NCBI RefSeq assembly: GCF_000176035.2
Contig: NC_015675.1
Span: forward strand, 930,001-994,000
Length of the DNA: 64,000 bases
Direction: 5' to 3'
Origin: Mesorhizobium opportunistum WSM2075
GTDB taxonomy: Bacteria > Pseudomonadota > Alphaproteobacteria > Rhizobiales > Rhizobiaceae
Positions 33,006 through 64,000 of this stretch are shown piece by piece. The number at the start of each line of letters is the position of its first letter. Position 1 is the stretch's first letter. The notes beneath the pieces were generated by a model. That model was not told the origin of the DNA. It was given only the letters and a program-made list of their open reading frames with translations, and did no database searches. Made by a program: the position numbers and the translations under genes.

Positions 33006-33030
33006 TCCTCTCCCTCCGGAGGGGGGAGAG
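33006..33030. repeat. Family 3 repeat, copy a, left fragment (interrupted)
   Basis: CCTCTCCCTCCGGAGGGGGG plus AGAG is the first part of the family 3 element. In intact copies it continues directly with GTGGCGCTGCG. Here the continuation is at 34178 across the IS110 element. The AG at 33029-33030 recurs at 34178-34179. Confidence 0.9.
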
Positions 33031-33045
33031 CGACTGTCTGGGGTG

Positions 33046-33984
33046 TCAAGTTGCATTTGCGAACTCGGCTCGCGCATCGCGTGCTTTTGCATTGAGGATG
33101 ACGAGGAGTTTTCGGGCGAGTGCGATGCGGATGAGCATTTTGGACTTTCCGGCCTGTTGCAACCGCTGAGCGAACGGTTTGAGATGGGGATCGAACTTGG
33201 CCACGATGGCCGCGACGATGAAGAGGATGCCTCGCGGCCCGGCGCGTCCGCCGCGCACATGCCTGTTGCCGGCCCGCCTGCCGCTGTCATCTGCGATGGG
33301 GGCGAGGCCTGCCAGCTTAGCGATGGCTTTGTTGGAGATGAGGCCGATCTCAGGCAGTTCGGCCATCAGGCGGGCGACGGTGCGCCCGGCCACCCCCTTG
33401 AGCGAACGGAAGGCCCGCTCCAGCCTGGCCCACAGCGGATCGTCGTCGATCATCGAGGCAATCTCGCCTTCCAGCCGTCGTTGCTCGCGCTTGAGGAAGG
33501 CCAGCATGGCCTCGATGCTGGCGCATGTCTCGGCGTCGCGTGCGGCACTTCTGCGCTGCTTGTTGATGGTCGCATCGCCGACAACCTGGCAAAGCCGCGC
33601 AACCAGTGCGGCGAGCCGCTGCTGGGCAGCGCTCGGCGGTGGCGTGGGGACCGTCTTCTTGACTTCGCTGTAATGGGCGATGACAGCAGCGTCGATCCGG
33701 TCGGTCTTTTCCAGATAACCCATCGCCTCGGCGAAGCGACGCACGCTCTTGGCATTGACCACGCCGCACGGCATGCCATGCGCCCACAAAAGCATGAACC
33801 CCAGCCTCTCATAGCCGCCCGACGCCTCCATCACCGCCATTGCTGCGCCGTGGCCACGGCAGAACAGCCAAAGAGCTGCGATGCCCGTCGCGTCATTGGC
33901 GAAACGCTCTGCCGCACCGCCTGGCCAGACATGCGCGTCCAGCCAATCCTTCGAAACATCAACTCCACAAATGATCTTGTTCAC
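33046..33984 (-). CDS. IS110-family transposase/recombinase
   Basis: 312 residues from GTG 33984 with AGG upstream. The N-terminal RuvC-like DEDD domain has D9 (ICGVDVSKDWLD), E53 (VMEASGGYE), and D95 and D98 (EKTDRIDAAVIAHY). A coiled-coil linker covers about 145-190. The C-terminal Tnp domain (Transposase_20) has LKGVAGRTVARLMAELPEIG and LAGLAPIADDSG, with S234 in the position of the catalytic Ser of IS621. Spacing of these residues closely follows IS621. All residues appear intact, so the protein is probably functional. Confidence 0.93.
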   Translation of the reverse strand: MNKIICGVDVSKDWLDAHVWPGGAAERFANDATGIAALWLFCRGHGAAMAVMEASGGYERLGFMLLWAHGMPCGVVNAKSVRRFAEAMGYLEKTDRIDAAVIAHYSEVKKTVPTPPPSAAQQRLAALVARLCQVVGDATINKQRRSAARDAETCASIEAMLAFLKREQRRLEGEIASMIDDDPLWARLERAFRSLKGVAGRTVARLMAELPEIGLISNKAIAKLAGLAPIADDSGRRAGNRHVRGGRAGPRGILFIVAAIVAKFDPHLKPFAQRLQQAGKSKMLIRIALARKLLVILNAKARDARAEFANAT

Positions 33985-33989
33985 GGTAA

Positions 33990-34177
33990 CCTGCCTTGTG
34001 CGTACGGTTGGAACCAAGCGACTGTTCGGTCGTGCGTGACGAAGGCGAAGATCCCAAGCTCTCCCGCGGCTGTAGCCTCAGGTGGTACGGGCGACTTCGC
34101 CAAGCCAAGGTCCGGGCGGCCGCCCGGACCTTGGCTCAATCGCTTCAATCCCACGAAATCGCTCTCGTGTAGATACA
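33990..34177 (-). ncRNA. Predicted bridge RNA in the IS110 non-coding end
   Basis: On the minus strand the order 5'->3' matches the known IS621 bridge RNA. First is a strong hairpin (34134-34105, 13-bp stem with GGCC loop). Next is a target loop closed by GGCGAAG (34101-34095) and CTTCGCC (34050-34044). It holds CCACCT (34085-34080), identical to the left target, and GGGAGAG (34065-34059), complementary to the right target. Last is a donor loop with AGCGACTGT on the plus strand (34017-34025), identical to the element's own end at 33029-33037, and CTTGT (33995-33999), complementary to ACAAG at the other end (34175-34179). The transcript is not shown; this is a structural prediction. Confidence 0.72.
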
Positions 34178-34369
34178 AGGTGGCGCTGCGCAGCAGCGAC
34201 GGAGTGGGGGAAGCCGCTCTTCAATCGCGCCGCCGCAAGAGATGCACACGCTGGCGAGCAAGAACTCAGGCAAGCGGCACTGAGGCGGAGCCATCGCTTC
34301 AACGAAAGGTCGACCCCCACTCCGTCGAGCTTCGCTCGACACCTCTCCCCCGATCGACGGGGGAGAGGA
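34178..34369. repeat. Family 3 repeat, copy a, right fragment
   Basis: It resumes with AGGTGGCGCTGCGCAGCAGC, then CGGAGTGGGGGAAGCC. The far arm is 34308-34369 (GGTCGACCCCCACTCCGTCG, GCTTCGCTCGACACCTCTCC, CGATCGACGGGGGAGAGG). Combined with 33006-33030 it forms a complete element. It fills the region before the branched-chain dehydrogenase operon. Confidence 0.9.
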
Positions 34370-39846: not shown

Positions 39847-40059
39847 CCTCTCCCTCCGGAGGGGGGAGAGGTGGCGCTGCGAAGCAGCGACGGAGTGGGG
39901 GAAGCCGGTCCTCAAATGCGCCGCCGCTGGCAACTCACCACAGGGCCTCGATCAGGGCGAGGCATCGTTTCGGCTTGAATAGCAACGCCTGAGCCAGGTC
40001 GACCCCCACTCCGTCGAGCTTCGCTCGACACCTCTCCCCCGATCGACGGGGGAGAGGAA
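39847..40059. repeat. Palindromic interspersed repeat, family 3, copy b
   Basis: An intact element between the convergent E3 and saccharopine-dehydrogenase-like genes. The left arm reads CCTCTCCCTCCGGAGGGGGG, GAGGTGGCGCTGCG, GACGGAGTGGGGG. The right arm reads GGTCGACCCCCACTCCGTCG, CCTCTCCCCCGATCG. The spacer is about 100 bases. It contains an intact IS110 target with AG at 39869-39870. Confidence 0.9.
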
Positions 40060-48640: not shown

Positions 48641-48789
48641 CTTCCCCCACTCCGTCTCGGCTTCGCCGAGCCACCTCTCCCCCCTCCGGAGGGAGAGGAA
48701 GGTGCCAAGGCTGGCTAACGCGCGCCTTTCCTCTCCCCCGTCGATCGGGGGAGAGGTGTCGAGCGAAGCTTGACGGAGTGGGGGTCGAC
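48641..48789. repeat. Palindromic interspersed repeat, family 3, copy c (rearranged)
   Basis: Arms CTTCCCCCACTCCGTCTCGG / CCACCTCTCCCCCCTCCGG and CCTCTCCCCCGTCGATCGGG / GACGGAGTGGGGGTCGACC. Inside-out relative to copies b, d and e: the conserved outer ends face the centre. It lies between the convergent amidohydrolase and flavin monooxygenase genes. Confidence 0.85.
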
Positions 48790-54994: not shown

Positions 54995-55187
54995 CCTCTC
55001 CCTCCGGAGGGGGGAGAGGTGGCGCCGCGTAGCGGCGACGGAGTGGGGGAAGGCGTTCGCCAAACGCGCAGTCGTCGCAAGATAGGCACGATCCGGCGAA
55101 CAAGTAGCCCTTAGGTGGGCGCGAAGGTCGACCCCCACTCCGTCGAGCTTCGCTCGACACCTCTCCCCCGATCGACGGGGGAGAGGA
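54995..55187. repeat. Palindromic interspersed repeat, family 3, copy d
   Basis: An intact element: CCTCTCCCTCCGGAGGGGGG, GAGGTGGCGCCGCG, CGGAGTGGGGGAAGGC, then GGTCGACCCCCACTCCGTCG, CCTCTCCCCCGATCG. It carries an intact IS110 target with AG at 55017-55018. It separates the binding protein from the Gfo/Idh/MocA gene. The remaining intergenic DNA up to 55265 shows only a GGAGGG ribosome-binding site. Confidence 0.9.
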
Positions 55188-63739: not shown

Positions 63740-63949
63740 CCTCTCCCTCCGGAGGGGGGAGAGGTGGCGCTGCGCAGCAGCGACGGAGTGGGGGAAGGCA
63801 TTCGCCAAACGCGCGGTCGCCGCAAGGCAGGAACACCCTGGCGAGCAAGGCAAGCAGCGATCAGTCGGAAACATTGCTTCAACGAAAGGTCGACCCCCAC
63901 TCCGTCGAGCTTCGCTCGACACCTCTCCCCCGATCGACGGGGGAGAGGA
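63740..63949. repeat. Palindromic interspersed repeat, family 3, copy e
   Basis: An intact element with both arms (CCTCTCCCTCCGGAGGGGGG, GAGGTGGCGCTGCGCAGC; GGTCGACCCCCACTCCGTCG, CCTCTCCCCCGATCG). It has an intact IS110 target with AG at 63762-63763. The last 50 bases of the window begin yet another arm (GTGGGGGAGAGGTGC), cut by the edge. No gene is seen between 63513 and the end. Confidence 0.9.
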
Positions 63950-64000
63950 AAGGCGCAAACTCGCCAACCCTTGTGCCCTGCCCAAGTGGGGGAGAGGTGC

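Follow-up and report, generated by a model that had tools for sequence, protein, structure and literature searches.

In the 64,000-nucleotide stretch of the Mesorhizobium opportunistum WSM2075 genome analysed here (the window), an IS110-group insertion sequence carries, in the non-coding end to the left of its transposase, what we hold with high confidence to be a bridge RNA, one whose target loop would guide insertion. The element and its relatives form a compact natural series in which target guides and insertion sites differ together.

The element and its recombinase

The element occupies 33031..34177 on the minus strand (1147 bp without the core). Its junctions were read in seven copies and its ends are fixed by an uninterrupted site in a related locus, L154. 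A CT core flanks it on both sides, at 34178..34179 on the left, where the left target reads CCAC-CT, and at 33029..33030 on the right, within CT-CTCCC (both on the minus strand). The transposase, a DEDD/Tnp recombinase of 312 aa encoded at 33046..33984 on the same strand, begins with GTG at 33984. It contains the domains PF01548 (E 1.7e-18) and PF02371 (E 1.5e-11), both above the curated cut-offs, and matches the solved structures of IS621 (8wt6, E 7.4e-25) and ISCro4 (9t56, E 2.3e-23). The catalytic residues D11, E60, D102, D105 and S241 described for IS621 (PMC11208158) align with D9, E53, D95, D98 and S234, the last in the pair S234–G235. The left non-coding end, upstream of the transposase, measures 193 nt (34177-33985) and the right end 15 nt. 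Where elements of this group have a sub-terminal inverted repeat of 2–3 bp (ATA/TAT), the left end reads TAT and the right end ACA in the window copy and ATA in many relatives. Judged by its domains, its DEDD and serine residues, its long left and short right ends and its short core, the element is of the IS110 group. The IS1111 group was considered and rejected, since it would need a long non-coding region downstream of the transposase, where this element has its 15 nt. Transposases 89–95% identical to this one occur in seven named Mesorhizobium records, two of them partial.

The insertion site

Where does the element insert? The genome (one contig, 6.88 Mb) holds seven copies with proteins 99–100% identical, all at one point and in one orientation of a palindromic repeat, reading ...CCACCT/element, CT/CTCCC...; the exception is the left flank of one copy (L005), which is GACACCT. 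Across the genome there are 58 occurrences of the site CACCTCTCCCCC versus none for the reversed control, and 37 of CCACCTCTCCC, the second arm of the repeat, versus two. Full-length matches to the RNA end likewise number seven, each beside one of the seven transposases; seven other matches, of 34 nt, lie on the opposite strand of the same hairpins. A search of the whole genome found no bridge-RNA end without a transposase.

At the same locus in the relative G036 (L154) the repeat is uninterrupted, CCACCTCTCCCCCC, from which it follows that nothing beyond the CT core was duplicated on insertion. It is also uninterrupted in the relative G114 (L146), with one difference, which lies in the core (GT for CT). 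Ten further CACCTCTCCCCC motifs lie in the window, most of them as inverted pairs about 70–170 bp apart: at 34340-34351, 39862-39873, 40029-40040, 48672-48683, 48747-48758, 55010-55021, 55158-55169, 63755-63766, 63920-63931 and 63988-63999. By their sequence these are open target sites for the element.

Four guide segments in the left end

The left non-coding end contains four short segments, all read on the minus strand, that match either the target or the element's own ends. The left target guide, CCACCT (34080..34085), is identical to the left target plus core; the right target guide, GGGAGAG (34059..34065), is the complement of the core plus right target, CTCTCCC. The left donor guide, ACAGTCGCT (34017..34025), is the same as the right end plus core; the right donor guide, ACAAG (33995..33999), is the complement of the core plus left end, CTTGT. 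All four stand where a preliminary description of this DNA had placed them, and their order, polarity and sharing of the core, which it had likened to those of the IS621 bridge RNA, agree with the layout as described in PMC11208160.

That description had also held such matches to be hard to obtain by chance. In 200,000 dinucleotide shuffles of the non-coding end, the chance of finding the two target guides in order was 8.05e-4 and that of the two donor guides 5e-5. When the left target guide is located by scanning, six of the eight scanned positions match in the window copy. Far stronger evidence than these odds is the covariation of guide and target in relatives.

Guide and target change together

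If the first loop selects the site, how do its guides behave in elements inserted elsewhere? We oriented 72 related loci, 51 of which had both ends readable; one (L068) was dropped as a duplicate of L088, leaving 50. The 21 loci left out were truncated, lay at contig ends, had a match ending inside the gene or belonged to a subfamily of 37–39% identity with other ends. Loci L063-L065, L072, L073, L077-L079 and L081-L087, being duplicates of included loci or end fragments, stand outside the set, and L095, whose transposase is partial, is in the counts and out of the tree. We located the 7-nt right target guide from nothing but the context downstream of it, blind to the target. This rule fixes the last two letters as AG, so that only five positions are free, and the permutation null was drawn under the same limit.

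In 43 of the 50 elements the right target guide complements core and right target without a mismatch (7/7); it matches at six of seven positions in five and at five of seven in two (the imperfect ones being L066, L069, L095, L110, L113, L115 and L116). The perfect pairs of guide and target are GGGAGAG/CTCTCCC, GGATGAG/CTCATCC, GAATGAG/CTCATTC, GGGTGAG/CTCACCC, AGGTGAG/CTCACCT, GACGGAG/CTCCGTC and GGAGAAG/CTTCTCC, with ACGTCAG/CTGACGT perfect in one of five copies; the guides GGATTAG (L069) and CAGGGAG (L095) have no perfect site. Over the 22 distinct loop sequences the mean match of the right guide is 6.77, versus 5.23 (sd 0.17) with the targets permuted, and none of 20,000 permutations scored as high. 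For the left target guide, taken as the best match by scanning, the mean over 22 clusters is 6.16 versus 5.43 (sd 0.14), again with none of 20,000 reaching it. With one entry for each distinct guide (10 in all), none of 50,000 permutations was as good. The preliminary description had named altered guides at matching altered targets in homologues as the test on which it could fail; the relatives did not refute it.

Can shared ancestry account for this agreement? Placed on a maximum-likelihood tree built from 24 transposases, the nine guide types must have changed at least 10 times; GGGAGAG by itself requires two changes, occurring as it does in the clade of the window copy and again in the distant L094. 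Shared ancestry alone is therefore no explanation of the covariation. The covariation suggests pairing between the first loop and CCAC-CT-CTCCC, the chromosomal target, which lies between two hairpins of the repeat; it also suggests that in nature changes in the target loop have led sister lineages to insert in other repeat sequences.

It might be argued that the matches are a residue of insertion, the end having captured pieces of the repeat, and that no RNA guides anything. After all, six letters of the flank recur unchanged in the left guide, and the genome has many copies of the repeat. But the right guide reads as its flank's reverse complement, lies within a loop that is conserved and follows the site from one lineage to the next; the uninterrupted site in the relative shows no duplication beyond the core; and the permutation result already contradicts such a residue, to which we attach a practically negligible probability.

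Five copies in one genome (L110, L113, L115, L116 and L117) have a common right target guide, and their targets match it at 7/7 in one case, 6/7 in three and 5/7 in one; one of the two mismatches in the last is a G–T pair. Copies with one guide and differing targets amount to natural data on mismatch tolerance.

The donor guides

The second loop would address the element itself. Compared with the right end plus core, the left donor guide matches at 9/9 in 34 of the 50 elements, at 8/9 in 15 and at 7/9 in one. As right donor guide, 43 elements have ACAAG and six GCAAG, and in one it was not located. In several close relatives the guide in the RNA is still ACAGTCGCT and the element's own end is ATAGTCGCT, a single mismatch. 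From these matches we infer that the second loop pairs with the joined ends of the element; a tetramer of the recombinase would then exchange strands at the CT core, by analogy with IS621.

Is the active form in the cell really a two-loop bridge RNA, or is it a shorter, processed guide of the seekRNA kind? RNAs of 70–100 nt co-purify with their transposases, one IS110-type element included, according to the account in PMC11187229, and the weak support for the donor-loop stem here (see below) also speaks for a shorter guide. Against this, the left donor guide is retained at 8/9 or better in 49 of 50 elements, and the right one as noted, both in the IS621 arrangement. We judge the shorter guide unlikely.

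Structure of the predicted RNA

The 193-nt left end folds at -92.6 kcal/mol (z = -5.4), and none of 200 shuffles is as stable. Because the stretch folded stops short of the donor loop's outer 3′ arm, its energy says nothing on the outer stem there.

A fold of such stability directly upstream of a start codon could be mainly a regulatory leader controlling translation or transcription of the transposase, with the protein choosing the site; ISPpu9 is described as having a structured regulatory 5′-UTR (PMC8450116). In six free RNAs, however, the pairing probabilities of the start codon and ribosome site range from mostly paired to mostly open, and so neither is consistently hidden. A leader would also leave the covariation of guide and target unexplained, and we consider it very improbable as the main role of this end.

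The consensus fold of 21 aligned relatives consists of a 5′ hairpin, the target-loop stem, an inner CCCG/TGGG stem and the donor-loop stem TCACG/CGTGA. To these stems we added a GACC/GGTT stem by hand and tested the resulting structure. In it 96.5% of cells are paired and 16 of 34 pairs show changes on both sides; none of 500 shuffles was as good on any of five measures, and versions slid along the alignment reached at most 51.7% paired. All both-side changes sit in the 5′ hairpin and the target-loop stem; no such change occurs in the inner target stem or in either donor-loop stem.

The 5′ hairpin (34103..34136, minus strand) has 14 consensus pairs, 12 of which change on both sides among the 21 relatives, and at least 11 of the 14 form in the minimum-energy fold of every one (21/21). 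It had been described as a 13-bp hairpin; the hairpin stands, its length does not. The stem that closes the target-binding loop is made by GGCGAAG (34095..34101) and CTTCGCC (34044..34050), both on the minus strand, as proposed from the outset. It belongs to the consensus fold, with compensatory both-side changes in four of its seven pairs; all seven form in 12 of the 21 minimum-energy folds and none in three.

The donor-binding loop presents a different picture. In the consensus fold its outer stem joins TCACG (34035..34039) to CGTGA (33981..33985), again on the minus strand, the 3′ arm overlapping the transposase start codon. This stem is 100% paired in the 21 relatives, with no both-side changes, and appears in two of the 21 minimum-energy folds, the inner stem in one. 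By eye, the outer stem of the distant L094 and L100 can be read as TCCATC/GATGGA, start codon (ATG) included. Of the second loop that had been put forward, then, the donor guides are conserved, but the closing stem, though part of the consensus fold, shows no covariation. Conserved guides and the IS621 precedent argue for the donor loop more than folding does; perhaps the protein shapes it. Donor-loop stems that do not covary, a target-loop stem missing from three of 21 folds, the six of eight scanned positions matched by the left target guide of the window copy, right guides with one or two mismatches (7/50) and left donor guides with at least one (16/50) all count against the bridge-RNA reading.

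A rival helix was seen in the minimum-energy folds, in which an upstream segment, AAGCGATT (34138-34145), pairs with the left donor guide (34016-34023) and so hides it. Seven or eight of its eight pairs form in 10 of the 21 folds, that of the window copy included, and 87.5% of its cells can pair across the 21 relatives. Its covariation among these 21 is no greater than in shuffles, 112 of 500 of which pair equally well; for this reason we did not build upon it, though we reckon it as evidence against the donor loop. The helix may represent an alternative state that conceals the donor guide, or be due to chance.

A scan of the whole window against Rfam at gathering scores returned only a tRNA and no bridge-RNA match, a further point against the bridge-RNA reading. 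The transposase of one relative, L009, begins with a stop codon in the frame given by the homology match; it may thus start elsewhere, or this copy may be damaged.

A predicted promoter at the element's joined ends

How would such an RNA be transcribed? A -35 box, TTGACA (33044..33049, minus strand), contains the TGA stop of the transposase, and a -10 box, TATCTA (34170..34175, minus strand), falls 17 nt from it when the ends are joined. The predicted TTGACA-17-TATCTA promoter arises only on this joining. The joined junctions of all 50 elements (50/50) have a TTGA-type box and, always at 17 nt, TATCTA, TATCTG or TAACTT. A promoter across the joined ends has been published for IS621 (PMC11208160). 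Excision of the element as a circle would bring TTGACA of the right end to within 17 bp of TATCTA of the left end, and the putative promoter so formed would transcribe the bridge RNA.

The predicted transcript (33981..34163, minus strand) is some 183 nt long. We place its 5′ end near 34163 because of the spacing from the junction -10 box, taken as in IS621, and its 3′ end near 33981 because the donor-loop stem reaches there. The RNA thus probably runs from about 34163 to 33981, overlapping the start codon of the transposase. The span had previously been given as 33990..34177. Position 34177 is indeed the end of the element but not a likely 5′ end of the RNA, and 33990 fails as a boundary, for the donor loop extends to 33981 in the consensus fold and would lose its 3′ arm. 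At this end the element differs from IS621: the 177-nt IS621 RNA, whose sequence was located in E. coli records, ends just before the transposase ATG, whereas the last predicted donor-loop pairs of the Mesorhizobium element include the GTG start.

Two lineages in a probably shared repeat

Two Mesorhizobium lineages whose complete transposases are 73–74% identical use different sites, GCCAC-CT-CTCCC in the window's lineage and ACACCC-CT-CATCC in the second. Repeats of the first kind consist of arm 1 (mostly CCCCCACTCCG), a hairpin and arm 2, the CCACCTCTCCC counted above (15 distinct stretches, from 30 of the 58 places). The genome has 17 intact second-kind sites, at 16 places, all of which we read; their hairpin is followed by CCACCTTC in 13 of 17, by ACACCTTC in three and by CCCCTTC in one. 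By eye, hairpin and arm 2 follow in eight of 10 complete elements of the second lineage (one in a variant form) and do not follow L016 and L028. These layouts indicate that the second lineage inserts in arm 1 and the window's lineage in arm 2. L100, 42% identical, sits in arm 2 of a second-kind repeat and has the matching guide, GGAGAAG. From the common layout we infer that the two repeats are homologous.

A bolder reading, which we offer tentatively and think rather doubtful, is that rhizobial bridge-RNA elements divide a composite repeat among themselves by changes in the target loop, and that the start codon within the donor-loop stem limits the supply of recombinase. Arm 2 would be cut by one lineage and arm 1 by its sister, and a distant subfamily would cut arm 2 in repeats of the sister type. 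As TCACG/CGTGA contains GTG, one transcript could not be both folded bridge RNA and translated message. The mixed accessibility of the start codon in the six free RNAs leaves this lock unsupported by free RNA. The two arms of a shared repeat, each used by a lineage with a matching guide, make natural retargeting directly testable. Beside one copy of the sister lineage stands a second IS110-type transposase, 35% identical (L030:2882-3769).

Relation to known systems

The closest parallel is IS621 of E. coli. In the descriptions of PMC11208160 and PMC11208158, as here, a DEDD/Ser recombinase is preceded by a bridge RNA in the left end, with the target loop before the donor loop and four guides that each include the CT core; the sigma70-like promoter across the joined ends (seen here as sequence) and insertion into palindromic repeats are shared too. 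Host, repeat and guide sequences differ. ISRm19 of Sinorhizobium meliloti, likened to the present element by description, is another rhizobial IS110-family element in repetitive palindromic sequences (4/4 copies as tabulated in PMC1525189), and the account of it there (Tobes and Pareja 2006), so far as drawn on here, mentions no RNA. The seekRNA elements (ISEc21 and the IS1111 types) also find their target by means of an RNA from a non-coding region, in the account of PMC11187229; that RNA is shorter, and in the IS1111 types its usual place is downstream of the transposase, the guide order being reversed.

How much of this is new? Bridge RNAs, insertion into palindromic repeats and covariation with thousands of targets are already in print (PMC11208160), as are natural reprogramming in ISEc11/ISXne4 (PMC11187229) and, since 2006, IS110 elements in the palindromic repeats of rhizobia, namely ISRm19 (PMC1525189). 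Among the titles listed by searches of the open-licence PMC literature we found no report of a bridge RNA in a rhizobium, which is no proof of absence. The Mesorhizobium element is a new, well-documented example of a known system, and its novelty is modest. With its relatives it allows the bridge-RNA model to be checked independently beyond the enterobacteria, and it supplies recombinases whose target pairs are known.

The E. coli records contain one further curiosity. Ahead of the IS621 copy at L118:1560-1870 lies part of its own left end a second time, breaking off inside the target-loop region. Such a doubled left end may have arisen by self-insertion or by recombination between copies; four other E. 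coli records, among the matches listed, likewise match in two pieces.
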